From positions 1 through 20,621 of the IMG/VR virus record IMGVR_UViG_3300030101_002579: 20,621 nt of DNA; one strand, given 5' to 3'. The translations under genes were made by a program, and so were the position numbers. The stretch is from a virus. Shown here one piece after another: positions 8,868 to 16,335 of this stretch (position 1 is the first letter of the stretch; each line of letters begins with the position of its first letter). The notes under the pieces were generated by a model. That model was not told where the DNA came from and searched no databases. It worked only from the letters and a program-made list of their open reading frames with translations.

Positions 8868-9031
8868 TATTGTAAAAAGAAGTTAAATGCTTCTACCTCT
8901 TGTTTTAATTCTTCTTGAAATGTTGTATTTAATTTTTCTACAATTGCATCAAGATCTCTTACTTGTGCCTCTGCCGTTCCTAAATCATATTCTTTACTTG
9001 GTCTTGTTAATACTTGTACTATCTTTGCCAT
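8867..9031 (-). CDS. Small helical protein, 54 aa
   Basis: A 54-residue frame starting MAKIVQVLTRPSKEYDLGTA and ending FFLQ-stop. The second half (about residues 18-50: AEAQVRDLDAIVEKLN and onward) is strongly helical and acidic, with heptad-like spacing of Leu, Ile and Val, so a short coiled coil is likely. The ATG overlaps the hub gene's stop as TAATG at 9031, and its own stop overlaps the next ATG as TAATG at 8867; this tight packing supports expression. Small proteins beginning MAKIVQ and containing LTRPSKEY are, from memory, found in marine phage structural clusters, with no assigned role. It may be a minor tail or assembly factor. Confidence 0.72.
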   Translation of the reverse strand: MAKIVQVLTRPSKEYDLGTAEAQVRDLDAIVEKLNTTFQEELKQEVEAFNFFLQ

Positions 9032-11205
9032 TATCTACGTCCGTCTGGTTGTATATCTAATCTAAAAGTCCCTAACTTCCAGTTTTGAGAAGAAGAGGTA
9101 TTTTCTATTTTTAATGCAATAGCTCTAGCTCTTGCTCGTGTATCTACTTTTTGTGTAGCTGTTGAAACTGTAAATGGTCCTAATGATGAACTAGATTGGG
9201 CATCATTTGGAAAGTTTCTTAATTGTAATGTAACTTGTGCATTCCCTGTTTGAGATATAAAATCTGGTATAAATCTTCTTATCTTCATTATAAACTCACC
9301 ATCTCCTCTAATGTCAGGTGTGCCTGTTGTTGCACCTCGTGCGATTCTTTGAGTAATATCAAAATCTCCAGAAGCTATGTTAGCTGTGATAGCTGTTATA
9401 GTTCCATTTTTATTTTGATCTGTCCCTGTTTCGTGTTCATAGTATATTGTTGTGCCTTCTGTGTTTCCTACTACATCAAAAGATGTATCAGTTCCAGCAT
9501 CGTATTCCGCTGCGTGTGGTAAACCAAATACTGCAGAATCTCTCCACATTGTTCTAGCTAGTGTTCCGTTTGTCCAAACTGGCCTTTGTGGTGAAGAATC
9601 AAAATAGTTATATGCAACCATTCTGTTTACAACAGAAGATGAGGAAGTTGGATAGAACCACATGACTTCACCAAAAAGATTATTTAATCCAGCAGATACC
9701 ATTTGGTTACCAGATGTTAAATTAATATCGTCGTATACAAAATCTTCTACTAAGCATGGTAGTGATTCTAGTTTACCAGCATATCTAAAAAAACCATTCT
9801 CTGACATCCAGTATGCTGAACCATCTACTTCAACACATGCATTTTTTCCAACGAGTCCGCAGTTAGTTCCAACCTGTGCAAACGCAAAGGTAAAAGGTTG
9901 ACCAACAAAACGTTGTGTAAATAATGCTGTATCAGTCCAAACATAGATTGCATCTCTACCTCTAATAGCTCCTATAATCTTTGATCCGTCGGCCAGTCTT
10001 TGTGTGCCTGCTGTATTGGTTGCTGTGGGTGTATATGTATTTATATCCTCTTGATCAGAGAATCTAATAAACATACTATCTTGTGTTTGTGTATCTCCAA
10101 TAGTTGTTTCTGTTCCAAAAAATACTAAGTGACGATCTGGTGTAGATACTACCATGTGTCTTGATGCTGTTGGTGCTCCAGATATAATTGTAGCTCTAGT
10201 AGTTGTTGCATTTGATAATGAAGAGTCCCATTCAAAACAAGCATTGTTTGCAATTAAACAAATAGCTTTGTCACCAAAATTATCTATGGACCACATACCA
10301 GGTTCGATAACTAAGTCTCCTGATGCAGCTTCACCCCATGCTACAAAGTCTGACGTGTCGGTAACTGTGGCTCCATCACTGTGAGATGCAGCTGTTGTAT
10401 TTCTAACACCTCTAGTTACACCTGTTAAAGTGTTTGATGTAATACCTGTGTAAGACATTTCTTCAGTCCCTATTTTAATAAAGTTAGTTCCTGTGTTAGG
10501 AAACTGAGAAGCGTCCGTTAATACAATAGTTGTTGTTGAATCATTAATAGCACCATTTAAAGTAGTAGTTGTTGCACCTGGCTCTTCTCCACCCCATGTT
10601 CCTAATGACCAACCAAAACCTCTTGCTTGAACGGCAGGTCCAACAGGATAATAATGTTGAACTCTAATACCACCTGATGTTGTAGCACCAGATCCAGATT
10701 CATTTGATGGCATTGTTATTGTTAAAGTTGTAGTAGATGGTACAGATGTTACCATAAATTTTTTGTCATCAAAATCAGATGCACTAAAATTAGAACCAGT
10801 TATAGCAGTGAAACTATCTAATAAAATTATTTCACCCGCAGAAATATTGTGTGCTGAGGGAAAAGTAATTGTAACAATAGGCGAACCATTGACTGTGCTA
10901 AAAGCACTTGTTAAAGTTGTTGTAGTTTTTATAGGGTGTATGTCATGAAAAAGACCACCTGAGAATGCGTATAAAATTCTGTTTGTACCTATGATTGCAT
11001 ACTTTCTACCTACACTATTGATGTAGTGGTGTAGACCTCTAGTAGCTCCCGTTAAAGCATCTGTTCCTAATTGTTTCCATCCACCTATCTTTTCTGGCGT
11101 GCCATATCTAAATCTAACATTATCGCAGTCTATCCACTGGCCTTCGGCTGTGGTTGCAGATATTTGTTTATTGATTCCAGGTTGGAAACCTATTTTTTGT
11201 AGCAT
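9031..11205 (-). CDS. Tail hub/nozzle protein, P22 gp10-like
   Basis: 724 residues. The N-terminus (GFQPGINKQ, then WIDCDNVRFRYGTPEKIGGW at about residues 24-43) is a hallmark I recognise in marine phage proteins related to P22 gp10, the hub or packaged-DNA stabilisation protein that forms the tail nozzle. Later blocks fit the same family: MVVSTPDRHLVFFGT near 345 and YWMSENGFFRY near 450. It is much longer than P22 gp10 (472 residues). Part of the excess comes from two apparent beta modules, about residues 95-182 (HNISAGEIILLDSF core) and 209-283 (TTIVLTDASQFP, then LTGVTRG). The ATG at 11205 follows GAGG by five bases. The gene comes after the oxygenase cassette, across a 68-base gap with a palindrome. 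It probably seals the tail after packaging and may bind fibres. Confidence 0.85.
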   Translation of the reverse strand: MLQKIGFQPGINKQISATTAEGQWIDCDNVRFRYGTPEKIGGWKQLGTDALTGATRGLHHYINSVGRKYAIIGTNRILYAFSGGLFHDIHPIKTTTTLTSAFSTVNGSPIVTITFPSAHNISAGEIILLDSFTAITGSNFSASDFDDKKFMVTSVPSTTTLTITMPSNESGSGATTSGGIRVQHYYPVGPAVQARGFGWSLGTWGGEEPGATTTTLNGAINDSTTTIVLTDASQFPNTGTNFIKIGTEEMSYTGITSNTLTGVTRGVRNTTAASHSDGATVTDTSDFVAWGEAASGDLVIEPGMWSIDNFGDKAICLIANNACFEWDSSLSNATTTRATIISGAPTASRHMVVSTPDRHLVFFGTETTIGDTQTQDSMFIRFSDQEDINTYTPTATNTAGTQRLADGSKIIGAIRGRDAIYVWTDTALFTQRFVGQPFTFAFAQVGTNCGLVGKNACVEVDGSAYWMSENGFFRYAGKLESLPCLVEDFVYDDINLTSGNQMVSAGLNNLFGEVMWFYPTSSSSVVNRMVAYNYFDSSPQRPVWTNGTLARTMWRDSAVFGLPHAAEYDAGTDTSFDVVGNTEGTTIYYEHETGTDQNKNGTITAITANIASGDFDITQRIARGATTGTPDIRGDGEFIMKIRRFIPDFISQTGNAQVTLQLRNFPNDAQSSSSLGPFTVSTATQKVDTRARARAIALKIENTSSSQNWKLGTFRLDIQPDGRR

Positions 11206-11236
11206 ATAACCTCATATTCCTATTGGTCGAATGCTT

Positions 11237-11265
11237 AACATATACTAGTATATCCCTCACATCAA
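11237..11265 (-). promoter_or_regulatory. Weak candidate promoter of the tail hub gene
   Basis: On the minus strand TTGATG (11265-11260), 17 bases and TATGTT (11242-11237) form a weak sigma70-like pair overlapping the palindrome. The position is sensible, about 30 bases before the hub ATG at 11205, but the match is modest. Confidence 0.28.
11240..11253. repeat. 14-bp perfect palindrome upstream of tail hub gene
   Basis: ATATACTAGTATAT reads the same on both strands and lies in the 68-base gap between oxygenase 4 and the tail hub gene. It is the only other long gap in the window. It may be an operator or part of a promoter. Confidence 0.5.
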
Positions 11266-11273
11266 GCGAGACT

Positions 11274-11891
11274 TTAGCCCAAATTTAATTCATTCAAGCA
11301 CTCAGGCTCACCAATTACACCAGAAATAAAAGTATTAAAAGCCAAACTTATTCTAGTATTAGTTCCTTTTTTTGCTTCTACTTGATGAAGTGTGCTTGAG
11401 GGAAACATAACTAAATCACCCGTGCCAACATGAAACCACCACATGTGAGAGTTCCAAAGATTATAGTTTTCTACTTCAGGACTAATTTGTTGGTATTCTG
11501 ATTTTGTAAATTTAATTTTGTCATTGTTAATATCACAATCAAAATATAAAACACCTGAAACAAATGAATTTGGATGTGAGTGCATGTGATGAAATTCATC
11601 TTTTTCTGTGTAATTAAGCCAAGATTGAGTTATCCTAATATCTATTTTATTTTTAGGACAGATAACAGTATCTATATAATTTTTGCAATGTCCTTCTAAA
11701 AAACTTTTTATGTTTATAAATTCTTTTCTATTTAATATATAATTGTCTTTTGTATTAATATTACCATTATTTGTAATACAATGATTTTTTTGTTCTTTTG
11801 CAAATAATAATTCTTGATCTGTAAAATTCCTGTCCATTTTTATTTTATATACTGGTATAGGAAAAAGACTGTGTATTGTAGGTTGTTCCAT
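11274..11891 (-). CDS. 2OG-Fe(II) oxygenase 4 (TIGR02466-like)
   Basis: 205 residues with the layout of the TIGR02466-type putative 2OG-Fe(II) oxygenases: an N-terminal FPIPVYK strand, a His cluster at 101-106 (HHMHSHPNS) with SGVLYF, then GDLVMFPSSTLHQV containing distal His169, and NTRISLAFN with Arg180, the expected 2-oxoglutarate carboxylate partner. The proximal metal site appears as HxH rather than the classical HxD, which is how I remember this family. Reaction expected from the family: O2- and 2-oxoglutarate-dependent hydroxylation of an unknown substrate. Its ATG directly abuts the preceding TAA, with no good ribosome site, and a hairpin plus T6 tract lies over the junction, so expression probably depends on coupling. 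It is the last gene of the four-enzyme cassette. Confidence 0.85.
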   Translation of the reverse strand: MEQPTIHSLFPIPVYKIKMDRNFTDQELLFAKEQKNHCITNNGNINTKDNYILNRKEFINIKSFLEGHCKNYIDTVICPKNKIDIRITQSWLNYTEKDEFHHMHSHPNSFVSGVLYFDCDINNDKIKFTKSEYQQISPEVENYNLWNSHMWWFHVGTGDLVMFPSSTLHQVEAKKGTNTRISLAFNTFISGVIGEPECLNELNLG

Positions 11892-12464
11892 TTAAAAAAC
11901 CCAAGATACTAGAGAGTATCTTGTTCCTTTTGTTACTGGTTTAACTAGATGTGGATATAAAAATATTGATGGAAAAAGTAAAACATCTCCAGCTTTAAAT
12001 TTTATTTCATGATCATCAAACATTATAAACTCACCGCCTTGATAATCATCATTTAAAACTCCAACAATACTTAAAACTGGTATCCCTTTAATTTGTCCAT
12101 CAAATATGCTGTGAATATGATCATTATGTTTAGCCATGGATTGACCTTCGCTATATCTATTAAACCTAATATGACTAAAACCTTTCCAGCCCGAAAAACT
12201 TTCTCCACCAATTTTATCAACTACAACATATCTTTCTATTGCTTTCCAAATAAATTGGTGAATTTGTTTACTATAAGTAAAATTATTATTTTGAATAACA
12301 TCAAGTTCTTTATTTCCATGCATACTTTTTGAATCATATGAAAATGAATTAGTCCATTTATGTTTTAACCAACCCTCTTGTTCATTAAACTCCATTATAG
12401 TTTTTTCTAAGATATCTTTAGGAATCCAATTATCTAATTGTAGTATGTAATCTTTTAAATTCAT
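11892..12464 (-). CDS. 2OG-Fe(II) oxygenase 3 (prolyl-4-hydroxylase-like)
   Basis: 190 residues. The double-stranded beta-helix core is recognisable: HIRFNRYSEGQSMAKHNDH gives His113 and Asp115 of the HxD motif, YQGGEF near 141-146 matches the strand that follows in prolyl-4-hydroxylase-like proteins, GDVLLFPS precedes distal His172, and GTRYSLVSWVF supplies Arg182 for 2-oxoglutarate. All expected cofactor ligands are present, so the protein should be active. It is most like oxygenase 1 of the same cassette (both end in GTRYSLV.W), which suggests paralogy or shared origin. The substrate is unknown; protein Pro or Lys hydroxylation is only one option. The ATG abuts the previous TAA (TAAATG) without a ribosome site, so translation is probably coupled. 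Confidence 0.88.
   Translation of the reverse strand: MNLKDYILQLDNWIPKDILEKTIMEFNEQEGWLKHKWTNSFSYDSKSMHGNKELDVIQNNNFTYSKQIHQFIWKAIERYVVVDKIGGESFSGWKGFSHIRFNRYSEGQSMAKHNDHIHSIFDGQIKGIPVLSIVGVLNDDYQGGEFIMFDDHEIKFKAGDVLLFPSIFLYPHLVKPVTKGTRYSLVSWVF
11896..11922 (-). terminator. Terminator-like hairpin at the oxygenase 3/4 junction
   Basis: On the minus strand AAGATACT, loop CTCT and AGTATCTT form an eight-base-pair stem at 11922-11903, followed by GG and then a GTTTTTT tract ending just before the stop and the next ATG at 11891. The stem is AT-rich, so it is weak as an intrinsic terminator, and it lies in the last codons of oxygenase 3. It may attenuate transcription or hide the start of oxygenase 4. 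Confidence 0.35.
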
Positions 12465-12947
12465 TTAAAAATAATTAAAGTTTATATTGAATCTTGCTTT
12501 TTTATCTGTGCAGTTTGTACTGTTATGTTCAATTGATGGATTAAAAAATAAAGCTCTGTTAGCTTTAGATTCTATTTTTTTATCTCCTATAACTGTATAA
12601 CCATCACAATCATTTAAACTTAATATTAAACCTTTGTGTTCATACTTATAATCAGTATGTGGTTTATGATAAACAATTTTATCCGATCTTGGATAACAAT
12701 TACCCTTAACTCTTATTAGTGCTTTTGAAGCAATTTTTTTTAACACAGGTTCTAACACATAAAAATGATCGCTATTTATTGTATTTTTGTCATAAAACAT
12801 ATGGGTAAAGTATAATGATCTTGGTTCATTTTCTTCATCTTCAGCAGAAACATTTTGCTGATAAAACCAAGAAAAATGCCAATTTATTACTTTGTCTTTT
12901 ATATTATTAAAATCTGTAACGTTTAAAAAATTATCAATTACTTCCAT
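12465..12947 (-). CDS. 2OG-Fe(II) oxygenase 2 (short cyanophage-type)
   Basis: I choose the ATG at 12947 (160 residues, MEVIDNFLN) over the upstream in-frame ATG at 12965. An AGGAG lies four bases before 12947, the upstream start has no ribosome site, and the protein family usually begins near this point. In this numbering the ligands are His97 and Asp99 (KPHTDYKYEH), distal His141 (FFNPSIEHNST) and Arg152 (KKARFNINFNYF). The block GYTVIGDKKIESKANRALFF matches small phage oxygenases known from cyanophages and marine contigs. It lacks the EGGE strand of oxygenases 1 and 3, so it belongs to a different subfamily. It overlaps the end of oxygenase 1 by ten bases and abuts oxygenase 3. The substrate is unknown. 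Confidence 0.85.
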   Translation of the reverse strand: MEVIDNFLNVTDFNNIKDKVINWHFSWFYQQNVSAEDEENEPRSLYFTHMFYDKNTINSDHFYVLEPVLKKIASKALIRVKGNCYPRSDKIVYHKPHTDYKYEHKGLILSLNDCDGYTVIGDKKIESKANRALFFNPSIEHNSTNCTDKKARFNINFNYF

Positions 12948-13534
12948 GGTTCTCCTAAAGTCCATACAACAAGGCTATATCTAGTGCCACTAGTTATGGG
13001 TTTTACTCTATGCCAAACAAAAGAGGGAAATATTACTATAGACCCTTGTGTTTTTATTTCATCACACACTCTGATATTATTTTCTGGTCTATTTTTAAAA
13101 TCAAACTCTAGTTCTCCACCCTCGTATTCATTTGTATCATTAAGTAAAATTGTTAAAGATAATTTTCTTTGTTTGTTTACAATTGTTTTATCTTTATGTT
13201 CTTTTATCCTATCTGTAACACTATCTGTGTGCCAGCCAAAAAAATGATCTTTATTATAAATTGTAAACTGTGTTTTTTCAAATGTATGCCATTCAAAATT
13301 CCATTCAGCGTTATGATTAGCGTAATTAATATATGGTCTTAAATCATCATAAATAAATTTTTGATCTAACCAAGAAACATCACAATCCCTGTTTTTACCA
13401 AGTATGTTTTTTTGATTAGCATCGTACACTTTAGCTTTTTCTTTTGTAATGCTTAAACCTAAATTTATAACTCTATTACACCAATCTTTCGATAGAGCGT
13501 CTTTAAAATAATAGTAATAATTGCTTAGTTTCAT
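12938..13534 (-). CDS. 2OG-Fe(II) oxygenase 1 (prolyl-4-hydroxylase/PKHD-like)
   Basis: 198 residues with a complete 2OG-Fe(II) oxygenase core: FTIYNKDHFFGWHTDSVTD carries His102 and Asp104 of HxD, LTILLNDTNEYEGGELEF is the family's next strand pair, GSIVIFPSFVWHRVKPIT holds distal His175, and GTRYSLVVW has Arg185 for the cosubstrate. The N-terminal 90 residues are helical, with aromatic residues at the very start (NYYYYF). This is the first gene of the cassette. It follows a 52-base gap with a candidate promoter and an AT-rich palindrome, and two bases of its ATG lie inside that palindrome. No Shine-Dalgarno is visible, so if the promoter is real its transcript would have a very short leader. 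The catalytic residues look intact; the substrate is not known. Confidence 0.88.
   Translation of the reverse strand: MKLSNYYYYFKDALSKDWCNRVINLGLSITKEKAKVYDANQKNILGKNRDCDVSWLDQKFIYDDLRPYINYANHNAEWNFEWHTFEKTQFTIYNKDHFFGWHTDSVTDRIKEHKDKTIVNKQRKLSLTILLNDTNEYEGGELEFDFKNRPENNIRVCDEIKTQGSIVIFPSFVWHRVKPITSGTRYSLVVWTLGEPWK
12952..12956 (-). promoter_or_regulatory. Ribosome binding site deciding the oxygenase 2 start
   Basis: AGGAG four bases before ATG 12947, inside the last codons of oxygenase 1. No comparable site precedes the longer frame's ATG at 12965, so the shorter protein is preferred. Confidence 0.65.
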
Positions 13535-13558
13535 ATATCTTTATAATTAAAGATATAT
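13533..13558. repeat. 11-bp inverted repeat over the oxygenase 1 start
   Basis: Arms ATATATCTTTA (13533-13543) and TAAAGATATAT (13548-13558) are perfect complements around a four-base centre. The left arm includes the first two bases of the oxygenase 1 start codon, and the right arm overlaps the candidate -10. It could be an operator, or an RNA hairpin if transcription reads through from the fibre genes. Confidence 0.6.
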
Positions 13559-13579
13559 CATATTGGTTTTATAAGTCAA
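13552..13579 (-). promoter_or_regulatory. Candidate sigma70-type promoter of the oxygenase cassette
   Basis: On the minus strand TTGACT (13579-13574) is followed after 16 bases by TATATC (13557-13552), with TG one base before it (13560-13559), giving an extended -10. A start about seven bases further would leave a leader of only some 10 bases before the ATG at 13534. The call rests on consensus match in a very AT-rich gap, where chance matches are frequent. Confidence 0.45.
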
Positions 13580-13587
13580 AGATATAT
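13578..13587 (+). repeat. Third copy of the AAAGATATAT element
   Basis: AAAGATATAT occurs here and again at 13549-13558 in the same direction (29 bases apart), and inverted at 13533-13542. This copy lies at the candidate -35 and touches the stop codon of the upstream 164-residue gene. Three copies within 55 bases suggest a protein-binding site, although low complexity weakens the case. Confidence 0.45.
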
Positions 13588-14081
13588 TAGGCTAGTACCC
13601 AAGCAGATCCATTCCAATTGTAAAGAGTAAGGTCTCCTGCAAATGTTGCTTTTTGCCCCTGCCAACCTAGTACTTTTGTAACATCGTTTTGATGAACACG
13701 CTCGTTCCAAGTTAAATCCCAAAGAACTTGATTTCCCTCATGTTCATATGTTGTTATACTTGGTTTTGCAATCGGTGATTCCCACTGATAAGTAGTTTCA
13801 TTTAAAAGCCAACTATCGTATCTTTTAATTGGAAGAAAAGCATCTAGTGCTTGATCGTATCTTCCACCAACAATTGCAAAATTTTTTCTAAAAGGTGTGC
13901 CACCTAATAAATGTTCGTTTTCAGAAGTATTGTATGAAGTCTGTTTCCAAATACTACCATCATTAGGATAAAGTGTTTTAATAAATTCAAGACCAGCTTC
14001 TTCTGTAGGAGCGTCATTATTATTAATAATAATTACGCTTTCAACTATGTTTCCTTTTCCTAATTTTGCAAAATGTGCCAT
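13587..14081 (-). CDS. Fibre-associated marine phage protein, 164 aa
   Basis: 164 residues, beginning MAHFAKLGKGNIVESVIIIN. The pattern that follows (SIWKQTSYNTS, then PFRKNFAIVGGRYDQALDAF, then SWLLNETTYQWESP) is familiar from cyanophage and other marine phage proteins found beside tail-fibre genes. Those usually read K.YAGIG..YD...DAFIPP.P..SW.LDE.T..W. The C-terminus (LYNWNGSAWVLA) also fits. The biochemical role is unknown; a tail-fibre subunit, connector or fibre-assembly factor is plausible from position directly after the glycine-rich fibre. The start follows the TAGGAGAT motif built on the previous stop. Its TAA overlaps the third copy of a ten-base repeat in the promoter region of the oxygenase cassette. 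Confidence 0.78.
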   Translation of the reverse strand: MAHFAKLGKGNIVESVIIINNNDAPTEEAGLEFIKTLYPNDGSIWKQTSYNTSENEHLLGGTPFRKNFAIVGGRYDQALDAFLPIKRYDSWLLNETTYQWESPIAKPSITTYEHEGNQVLWDLTWNERVHQNDVTKVLGWQGQKATFAGDLTLYNWNGSAWVLA

Positions 14082-14086
14082 AATCT

Positions 14087-14094
14087 ATCTCCTA
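14087..14094 (-). promoter_or_regulatory. Stop-embedded ribosome site TAGGAGAT before the 164-aa gene
   Basis: The TAG stop of the tail fibre forms the first three bases of TAGGAGAT, with the next ATG five bases later. The same eight bases recur at 16341-16348 and 17936-17943. Confidence 0.7.
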
Positions 14095-16335
14095 TGCTAC
14101 GTACGTACCGCTAGCTGTAAATTGTATTACTGTATCACTACCGTCTACTGAAACCGTAGGTGATCCTGTTGTTGTGCCTGAAAAGTTTGCTGTTGGTATT
14201 CTTAAAATTATAATACCGCTTCCTCCAGCTCCTGCATTGTTTGCGCTAGCACCGCCACCGCCGCCAGTATTTGCTGTGCCTGCAGGTTCACCGTTTCCTG
14301 TAGCGCCGTTACCGCCGCCTCCGGCGCCTCCGGATCCTCCACCTGCCGGTCCGCTTTGGCCACCGCCTCCGCCACCACCAGCTAATGTTACTGAAGCACC
14401 TGTAATAGCTGTAGCTTGACCGTCTCCTCCAGGGTTAGCAGAACCGTTTTGAACTCCGTTTCCTCCAACCTGAGTAGCTCCACCACCAGATCCTCCTGAT
14501 CGGTTACTTCCACCGCTTGAACCGTTTCCACCGTCATTTCCTTGACCAGCAGTTCCAGCTCCACCAGGGATGACAGGTCCTCCGCCACCTTCTTGGGCAG
14601 ATACTCCTCCACCGCCAGATCCACCAGCCGATGAAGGTGTGTTACTATTATTAAAATTACCTCTACCACCACCAATTGATGTGATTGTAGTGACTCCTGG
14701 TCCAGCTATTGAACTGTCTGAACCGTTACCATTTTTGCTACCCCCAGCCCCTACTGTAATCGTGTAAGTTGCACCAGGTGTTAAAGTTATTGCAGGTTCC
14801 CCTGAAGCAGAACCACCAGTGGGTTCACTAGCGAAAGCCGCTCTGTACCCGCCTGCGCCTCCGCCTCCGCCACCAAACGGAACTAAAGGTGTTCTACCGC
14901 CTCCGCCACCAGCTACAACAACCCAGTTAGATGTGTAAGGTGCAGAAAGGTTAAAACCACCAGAGTTTGCGTCTGCTGTTGAGTTACCAGATCCAGTTAA
15001 GACATATCCTTTTGTGCTGTCTGTAAAAGTGACTTCAACTGCTTGCCTATTTTGAGTGGCAAAGTGATTAAGATCATCTAATCCTTCAAACTTATTTCCA
15101 TTAGGATCTAATACTAAGTTATTAGAATTCCATGACTGTGCATAATCTTTAAATCTAAAAGTGTCTCCTATACTAGGAGATGCTGGTAATGTTGCTGTTA
15201 TTGCACCACCACTTGTATTTACGAAATAACCTTCTCCTGCTGCTGCGTTAAAGTTAGCTGTTTTTACTGCTTGCCAAGAGGTTCCGCCTGATACTGCCCC
15301 AAAAGACAATACTCCTGATCCATCTGTTTTTAAAAATTCATCAGCGTTACCATCTGTTGCAGGTAAAGTTAAAGTTACATCACTCGCAAGTGTAGGTGCT
15401 TTTAACGCAATGAAATTTGTACCATCATCGGTATCTTCTGTAATTTTTATAGTACCAGCTTGAGTTGAATTACCTGAAACTTGTACAACTCCTGATCCAT
15501 TTGGTGCTAATGTAATGTCTCCGTTTGCACCGTCTGTAATTGTAATCGAGCTAGAGTTTGTTCCTGAGTTTGTATCTAAAACTAAGTCATGTGCACCACT
15601 AGAAGTTACAGTAGCTGCTGCAGCTCCCGTACCAACTTTAGTTTCACCAGTTCCTTTTGGAATTAAAGCAAGATCAATATTAGAGTCATCTCCAGTTGCA
15701 GATATGCTAGGTGCGTTACCTGTCGCTGCGTTCGTAACATCTATTTGGTTTACTGCAGACGATGTTGTTTGAAAAATAATTTGTTCATTTCCATTCTCAT
15801 CAGCAATAAAGTGTGCATCATCAAATAAAATATTATGAGAATTAGTATCTAGATTTCCACCTAATTGTGGTGTTGTATCATCAACAACATCTGAACCTGT
15901 TGAGATTTCTAAAATTTTAGGATTTGTAGTATCTGGATTACCAGAAGCAAAAACTATTTTTGTTCCTTTATCTGTAGCTGAAAAAGTAAAACTATCTCCA
16001 GATCCTGTAGCATATTTAAACTGTACAGTGAATGATCCTGAAGTTGAATTTTTTAAGAAGTAAAGGTTTTGAACGTCATTTGGAATTGTAACGATTTGAT
16101 TACCTGTAATTGTACCTGTAAACTCAATCATTCTGTGTGCAAGTTCTGCACCTGTGTTACCATCTGTAACCGCTAAAGCAGTTGTCTGTGCACTACCTGC
16201 AATAGATTTTTGTATAAATCCACCAGATATTTGTTCTAAAATTTGTAAATTGGTATTTGTTTTTGTTCCCCAAGTTCCAGCATTTTCACCGGTTTGTTGA
16301 ATTTCTACCCCTAAAGGTGTGTATGTTGATGCCAT
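14092..16335 (-). CDS. Tail fibre with glycine-rich tip
   Basis: 747 residues in three parts. Residues 1-150 (MASTYTPLGVEIQQTGENAG, then TIPNDVQNLYFLKN) form a conserved marine-phage fibre N-terminus that probably attaches to the virion. Residues about 150-350 hold repeated short beta motifs (ALIPKGTGETKVG, TLAPNGSGVVQVSG, LTLPATDG) typical of trimeric fibre shafts. Residues 355-465 (SWQAVKTANFNAAAGEGYFV onward) form another beta module, containing GDTFRFKDYA. Residues about 468-706 are extremely Gly-rich (runs such as GGGGGGAGGYR), ending in SGIIILRIP and a beta-strand tail. Gly-rich receptor-binding tips are known in phage adhesins such as S16 gp38, where polyglycine helices pack together; similarity here is by composition only. 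Local G+C is high for this genome (41 of 60 bases at 14281-14340). Likely role: host recognition. Confidence 0.85.
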   Translation of the reverse strand: MASTYTPLGVEIQQTGENAGTWGTKTNTNLQILEQISGGFIQKSIAGSAQTTALAVTDGNTGAELAHRMIEFTGTITGNQIVTIPNDVQNLYFLKNSTSGSFTVQFKYATGSGDSFTFSATDKGTKIVFASGNPDTTNPKILEISTGSDVVDDTTPQLGGNLDTNSHNILFDDAHFIADENGNEQIIFQTTSSAVNQIDVTNAATGNAPSISATGDDSNIDLALIPKGTGETKVGTGAAAATVTSSGAHDLVLDTNSGTNSSSITITDGANGDITLAPNGSGVVQVSGNSTQAGTIKITEDTDDGTNFIALKAPTLASDVTLTLPATDGNADEFLKTDGSGVLSFGAVSGGTSWQAVKTANFNAAAGEGYFVNTSGGAITATLPASPSIGDTFRFKDYAQSWNSNNLVLDPNGNKFEGLDDLNHFATQNRQAVEVTFTDSTKGYVLTGSGNSTADANSGGFNLSAPYTSNWVVVAGGGGGRTPLVPFGGGGGGAGGYRAAFASEPTGGSASGEPAITLTPGATYTITVGAGGSKNGNGSDSSIAGPGVTTITSIGGGRGNFNNSNTPSSAGGSGGGGVSAQEGGGGPVIPGGAGTAGQGNDGGNGSSGGSNRSGGSGGGATQVGGNGVQNGSANPGGDGQATAITGASVTLAGGGGGGGQSGPAGGGSGGAGGGGNGATGNGEPAGTANTGGGGGASANNAGAGGSGIIILRIPTANFSGTTTGSPTVSVDGSDTVIQFTASGTYVA
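14215..14930 (-). repeat. Low-complexity glycine-codon tract of the tail fibre tip
   Basis: About 240 codons dominated by GGN with mixed third bases, raising local G+C to 41 of 60 bases at 14281-14340 against 16 of 60 at 12721-12780. Many GG doublets on the coding strand could form weak two-layer G-quadruplexes. Confidence 0.75.

Follow-up and report, generated by a model that had tools for sequence, protein, structure and literature searches.

Organization of the locus and identity of the four proteins

The window analysed here is the whole 20,621-nucleotide stretch of the IMG/VR record IMGVR_UViG_3300030101_002579, which consists of this window only. The element in question is a block of four different, intact open reading frames (ORFs), all on the minus strand and transcribed in the order D-C-B-A, predicted to encode oxygenases of the 2-oxoglutarate (2OG)-Fe(II) type and located between genes for a fibre protein and its small neighbor Y on one side and a virion structural protein, here called STAB, on the other:

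12938-13534, minus strand: gene D, 198 aa, PKHD/prolyl-4-hydroxylase-like 2OG-Fe(II) oxygenase, leads the block
12465-12965, minus strand: gene C, 166 aa, short cyanophage-type oxygenase
11892-12464, minus strand: gene B, 190 aa, PKHD-like 2OG-Fe(II) oxygenase
11274-11891, minus strand: gene A, 205 aa, TIGR02466/2OG-FeII_Oxy_5 protein with H-x-H replacing H-x-D

Profile searches assigned the products to different subfamilies, as the sequence-only reading had proposed: A to PF13759 (E-value 6.5e-20) and, above the cut-off, to TIGR02466; B and D to PF13640, both above the Pfam cut-off (E-values 4.9e-13 and 8.8e-16; D also matches phrog_61); and C to phrog_274 (E-value 1.6e-47), with a weak match to PF13640 that falls below the cut-off (0.004). 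B and D are distant relatives (31% identity, E-value 1e-10), and profile-profile comparison matched the C profile to that of B/D at an E-value of 1.1e-7. Among solved structures, the relatives of D are PiuC (9ghl) and 3dkq, and those of B are 3dkq and PiuC.

All the residues that had been proposed for a proximal metal site, a distal His and a 2OG-binding Arg were located in the four proteins. The HxD/E...H metal triad of the superfamily is present in D (H102-x-D104, HTD/H175, with R185 as the 2OG-binding basic residue), C (H103-x-D105, HTD/H147, R158) and B (H113-x-D115, HND/H172, R182), while A carries HxH...H, with His where Asp is usual (H104-x-H106/H169, R180). This variant is conserved in the A class (H-x-H in 52/52 relatives, H169 in 51/51) and also occurs in the aligned sequences of two relatives with solved structures, 3bvc and 2rg4. 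Structure prediction, carried out for gene A, yielded a confident AlphaFold2 model (predicted local distance difference test score, pLDDT, 89.7) with a double-stranded beta-helix, whose best PDB matches are 2OG-family structures (3bvc, E-value 1e-10; 2rg4, 2e-9; also prolyl hydroxylases). We conclude from these profiles and motifs that A-D are predicted enzymes of the 2OG-Fe(II) oxygenase superfamily; the presence of four such genes in a row is confirmed and lies far beyond chance. The name "DNA endonuclease V", given to gene C by PHROGs and by cyanophage annotation, was ruled out by the profile and the oxygenase motif, and this label is probably wrong for phrog_274 and the cyanophage homologues in general.

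Borders of the block and local control

The features that surround the block are as follows:

14092-16335, minus strand: fibre protein with a glycine-rich C-terminal domain (PF21722)
13587-14081, minus strand: Y (phrog_7759, function unknown), small protein directly upstream of the block
13535-13586, minus strand: gap upstream of the block, 52 nt, A+T rich, with a short inverted repeat
11206-11273, minus strand: gap between the block and STAB, 68 nt, with weak hairpins
9031-11205, minus strand: STAB (phrog_3287, "virion structural protein"; "stabilization protein" in relatives)

The two longest gaps thus flank the block exactly, as had been noticed from the sequence; the remaining gaps between called genes in the window are all at most 13 nt long, genes C and D overlap by 28 nt, and one reading frame extends past the right end of the window. 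The suggestion that the block is an inserted or separately controlled unit held in part: it is discrete, it sits at one site and its separate control is possible, but a promoter scan of the window revealed no excess over shuffled sequences. The G+C content of the block (27%) is lower than that of STAB (37%) and the fibre gene (43%); however, since the oxygenase genes of relatives average 29%, this is a trait of oxygenase genes in this setting and not evidence of recent foreign origin.

In several relatives the gap before STAB contains a strong hairpin or a TATAAT-like sequence. In three loci (L016, L040 and L055 in our numbering of related loci) it holds strong stem-loops with a common ACCACAC-like loop and a T-rich stretch after them, resembling a terminator; the TATAAT-like sequences were found in other loci than these. 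The oxygenase arrays of L003, L031 and L082 are inverted with respect to the virion operon, and should therefore need a promoter of their own.

Close relatives and selection

STAB is 46% identical to the proteins of 023Pt_psg01 and HTVC027P and 47% identical to part of the HTVC023P protein, and the gene order is broadly that of HTVC023P-type phages, with homologous virion proteins in synteny. On these similarities the window is identified as a fragment of an HTVC023P-type, pelagiphage-like virus; isolation on Pelagibacter holds for its relatives and not for the window virus itself.

Related genomes were compared at the same site, as the sequence-only reading had called for. Six IMG/VR contigs (L098-L103), in which D is 91-96% identical, have the gene order fibre-Y-D-C-B-A-STAB over the part that each of them covers. 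Ratios of nonsynonymous to synonymous substitution rates (dN/dS), computed for the window against close relatives, reveal purifying selection on all four genes: 0.09-0.23 for A, 0.08-0.27 for C, 0.14-0.24 for D and 0.23-0.60 for B, in which the changes fall mainly in the N-terminal half and the catalytic half is nearly fixed (for comparison, STAB: 0.04-0.08; fibre: 0.23-0.47). The alleles of B and of the fibre do not co-track perfectly among the six close relatives. The highest ratio among the genes tested was obtained for Y (0.60-2.47), a value with few synonymous changes behind it; Y could be a receptor-contacting or a modified protein. In L016, which is more distant and has the same fibre type, Y, B and A are present (A and B 57-58% identical), and only 24 nt separate Y from B at the place of the window's D and C. 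At this single site, the make-up of the cassette varies by individual genes.

Oxygenase arrays between fibre and STAB in related phages

We collected 80 loci by STAB similarity and annotated the interval between fibre and STAB by ORF calling, clustering and profile-profile comparison; a subset of 42 loci, three reference phages among them, has a complete interval with the flanking upstream virion gene. At least one oxygenase was found in 38 of these 42, mostly two to four, with a maximum of eight, while in L069, which lacks the upstream flank, there are ten oxygenases and one copy of the F protein described below; array size in related ocean phages ranges from about 1 to 11. STAB forms the fixed downstream border of the arrays, and Y lies directly upstream of them in many relatives. 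HTVC023P, 023Pt_psg01, HTVC033P and HTVC027P all possess such arrays, that of HTVC027P being inverted. In pelagi- and cyanomyoviruses the arrays stand beside neck genes, mostly on the fibre side (S-RSM4, S-SM1, Mosig, HTVC008M and Sf-CH11), with the order fibre-like gene, Y, oxygenases in the cyanomyoviruses S-RSM4 and S-SM1. Four adjacent oxygenases, which had been considered unexpected, are consequently ordinary for these viruses, and rarity was rejected as an argument, arrays being nearly universal in the fibre-STAB interval of this phage group.

The content of the arrays follows the fibre type. All five loci with LamG/DUF7483 fibres are devoid of oxygenases, whereas one or more genes for an oxygenase or F are present in the available sequence of all the others. 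Each R254-type locus contains a single B/D gene and a single F (13/13), some with extra oxygenases of other classes; BIG42-type loci contain A and one B/D gene, with nothing else in 5/6 (L047 has these and more); Y-type loci are the variable ones. In a Mantel test on 41 loci the oxygenase set correlated with the fibre module (r 0.49; 0.43 given STAB) more strongly than with STAB given the fibre module (0.26), although such figures are inflated by shared ancestry, relatedness being only partly corrected for. This asymmetry between the two neighbors ties array content to the fibre more than to STAB.

The "ferrochelatase" of the arrays is a predicted 2OG-type enzyme

Most arrays of relatives contain one copy of a protein of ~210 aa, here called F, annotated as "putative ferrochelatase" (phrog_2954, phrog_3531); the window does not contain it. 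The name derives only from PHROG and record annotation, and none of 45 F members matches a Pfam ferrochelatase model. Instead, all 68 members examined have H108, D110 and H161, i.e. an HxD motif with a distal His, and the AlphaFold2 model (pLDDT 94.5) finds its best solved matches among prolyl hydroxylases, above all the prolyl-4-hydroxylase of P. putida solved with EF-Tu (4iw3, E-value 6e-9); the position of the usual 2OG-binding basic residue is not clear. The lack of a family match, the invariant motif and the prolyl-hydroxylase-like model indicate that F is most likely a further enzyme of the 2OG type. One half of phrog_3531 is matched by F and the other by B, which suggests an F-plus-oxygenase fusion in some phages; no fusion of an oxygenase with a fibre domain was found among oxygenase ORFs longer than 300 aa in later IMG/VR loci. 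Records to which the prediction applies include:

L002, 9264-9884: F, HTVC023P gp67; "ferrochelatase" label probably wrong, predicted 2OG-type fold
L004, 9471-10115: F, HTVC033P gp58; "ferrochelatase" label probably wrong, predicted 2OG-type fold
L007, 9386-10502: F, S-SM1 SSM1_060/061; "ferrochelatase" label probably wrong, predicted 2OG-type fold

Halogenases and transferases in the arrays

Most large non-fibre ORFs within the arrays of relatives encode tailoring enzymes. Tryptophan halogenases (PF04820) were identified in L023, L032/L034, L044, L069 and L073; NodU-like carbamoyltransferases (PF16861/PF02543) in L018, L037, L045, L048, L054, L057 and L075; sulfotransferases in L038 and L071, more weakly in L020 and below the cut-off in L015; and methyltransferase-like proteins in L020 and, below the cut-off, in L038. 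Summed over all arrays, there are 214 oxygenases, 64 F, 9 carbamoyltransferase ORFs (some split), 7 sulfotransferases, 6 halogenases, 2 methyltransferases and 17 unclassified ORFs, several of them JmjC/cupin-like. None of the halogenase or carbamoyl-, sulfo- and methyltransferase genes occurs in a locus that lacks oxygenases, and no glycosyltransferase was found among the array ORFs scanned with Pfam.

The GxGxxG and WxWxIP motifs are both kept in three of five halogenases checked; the halogenase-family proteins of L044 (4348-5544) and L073 (4607-5989) lack WxWxIP and are possibly decayed or endowed with another activity. In a separate search, 72 of 78 halogenase loci had an oxygenase or F as immediate neighbor of the halogenase, and 70 had genes of the fibre, Y or STAB type; these loci are related to each other and hence not independent. 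Two tandem halogenase genes stand at the head of the oxygenase array of P-TIM40 (L097, 8001-11097), and Syn10 (L095, 10986-14091) likewise has two, followed by at least seven oxygenase-like genes and F. These enzymes strengthen the combinatorial modification logic that the sequence-only reading had put forward, and which our results support.

Proposed function and alternatives

We propose that the block is a tailoring cassette of modular build that belongs with the host-recognition genes and modifies receptor-binding proteins during assembly, an assignment to which we give slightly less than an even chance. The genes would be expressed late, and during virion assembly the putative oxygenases would act on freshly synthesised receptor-binding proteins (the fibre and/or Y) and hydroxylate their side chains; in relatives, the halogenases may place halogen on aromatic groups and the carbamoyl-, sulfo- and methyltransferases may cap the new hydroxyl groups. 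As the enzyme sets differ between phages, adhesin chemistry would vary along with adhesin sequence, to the benefit of attachment. The wider claim, that phages build hydroxylated, halogenated, carbamoylated, sulfated and O-methylated side chains on their own receptor-binding proteins with enzyme arrays swapped together with fibre genes, appears doubtful to us at present. If true, host recognition would vary at a further level, on top of the variation in protein sequence. If the arrays encode tailoring enzymes that belong to host recognition, an annotation in wide use is wrong, and the search for what VirX1 and other viral halogenases naturally act on has a starting point.

Several points speak against this proposal. 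Halogenase, transferase and F genes are all absent from the window; in the open-licence literature we found no published virion proteomics with modified fibres; the linkage with fibre type could partly reflect a recombination hot spot, and its statistics correct for relatedness only in part, as stated above; carbamoyl- and sulfotransferases often act on sugars; and some reference phages encode glycosyltransferases at a distance of a few genes (HTVC023P gp77, HTVC027P gp80). The mutated 2OG gene of the S-TIM4 evolution experiment (ORF23; PMC6224464) is located near gp5/lysozyme and not in a fibre array, and was not used as support.

The sugar-related points count in favor of the main rival, in which the cassette decorates host surface glycans (lipopolysaccharide or capsule) or a virion-bound glycan, so as to block superinfection or alter adsorption. 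A glycan target was suggested by Iyer et al. 2021 (PMC7824862) for a related cluster in a jumbo cyanophage, glycosyltransferases occur in the pelagimyophage host recognition cluster (PMC7029224), and A has a weak similarity to the "sporadic carbohydrate cluster" model (E-value 0.004, far below the cut-off). Nevertheless, the arrays themselves yielded no glycosyltransferase in our scan and follow the fibre type, and since sugars already carry hydroxyls, up to ten hydroxylases need another reason and capping enzymes alongside hydroxylases fit protein side chains better, which is an argument and not a test. We regard the glycan explanation as rather unlikely.

Distinctly less probable is a role as classical auxiliary metabolic genes that change how the host metabolises 2-oxoglutarate, iron or nitrogen, the "ferrochelatase" serving as their partner for iron, as proposed for cyanophages (Sullivan 2010, PMC3037559) and echoed in PMC9599517 and PMC11561400. 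The fold and family tests of F led us to reject the ferrochelatase as iron partner, and the predicted 2OG-type nature of F would undercut this reading in both later papers; moreover, 1-11 diverged copies with fibre-dependent content are ill-suited to a single metabolic sink. We attach only a small probability to the synthesis and tailoring of a phage-encoded small molecule or peptide, which was suggested for S-SSM6a (PMC7824862) and which the combination of halogenase, 2OG, carbamoyl, sulfo and methyl enzymes recalls by its resemblance to natural-product tailoring sets: among the scanned array ORFs we recognised neither an enzyme that would form a scaffold nor a transporter or protease, and the array sits inside a virion operon. 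An equally small chance is left to a fibre-side recombination hot spot that gathers oxygenases which are unrelated, useful each by itself and not part of a shared pathway. High gene turnover, the absence of D and C from L016 and the inverted arrays would fit it, but nearly all classified genes of the intervals encode hydroxylases or tailoring enzymes and their content depends on fibre type. Modification or repair of nucleic acids, based on the DNA-repair role proposed for phage 2OG enzymes (PMC3037559) and the PHROG name of gene C, is hardly credible, as A-D lie among virion genes and have no AlkB or TET/JBP Pfam match up to an E-value of 1.

Comparison with known systems

Overall, the initial interpretation is partly supported; to speak of an undescribed system was too strong, because co-location of such genes had been reported by Wittmers et al. 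2022 (PMC9599517). Already known are thus the clustering of 2OG genes and a related halogenase/2OG/carbamoyltransferase cluster (Iyer et al. 2021), while the linkage with the fibre, the correction for F and the tailoring arrays of small phages appear to be new with respect to the open-licence literature, to which our search was confined and outside which the fibre link may have been stated before.

Wittmers et al. described, in the same phage group, eight non-orthologous co-located 2OG genes adjoining "ferrochelatases" in HTVC023P-type pelagiphages, as "partner AMGs" (auxiliary metabolic genes). There, the genes are called nearby, not adjacent, and are considered metabolic, whereas the arrays analysed here are mostly adjacent, occupy one fibre-STAB site and follow the fibre type, and their "ferrochelatase" is predicted to be of the 2OG type. 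Several 2OG genes per cyanomyovirus were reported by Sullivan 2010 (PMC3037559), with proposed metabolic or DNA-repair roles. The host recognition cluster (HRC) of pelagimyophages (Zaragoza-Solas et al. 2020, PMC7029224) is a hypervariable tail-fibre island ending at the neck gene, and the arrays of Mosig and HTVC008M likewise adjoin their neck genes; in the parts of that paper on which this comparison draws, however, glycosyltransferases are emphasised and not oxygenase arrays.

Cyanophage Syn10 encodes the iodinating halogenase VirX1 (reviewed in PMC8407142), for which the literature consulted for this comparison gives no natural substrate. A 530-aa halogenase of the Syn10 array may correspond to VirX1 (listed with 531 aa), the identity being judged by length only. 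Homologous halogenases are found in the arrays of relatives, but not in the window. The predicted cluster of jumbo cyanophage S-SSM6a, interpreted as a glycan or metabolite system (PMC7824862), unites the same kinds of enzymes as the arrays of relatives. It differs in having sugar genes of the rfaE and cytidylyltransferase type, whereas the pelagipodovirus arrays are dominated by oxygenases and are placed between the fibre and STAB.

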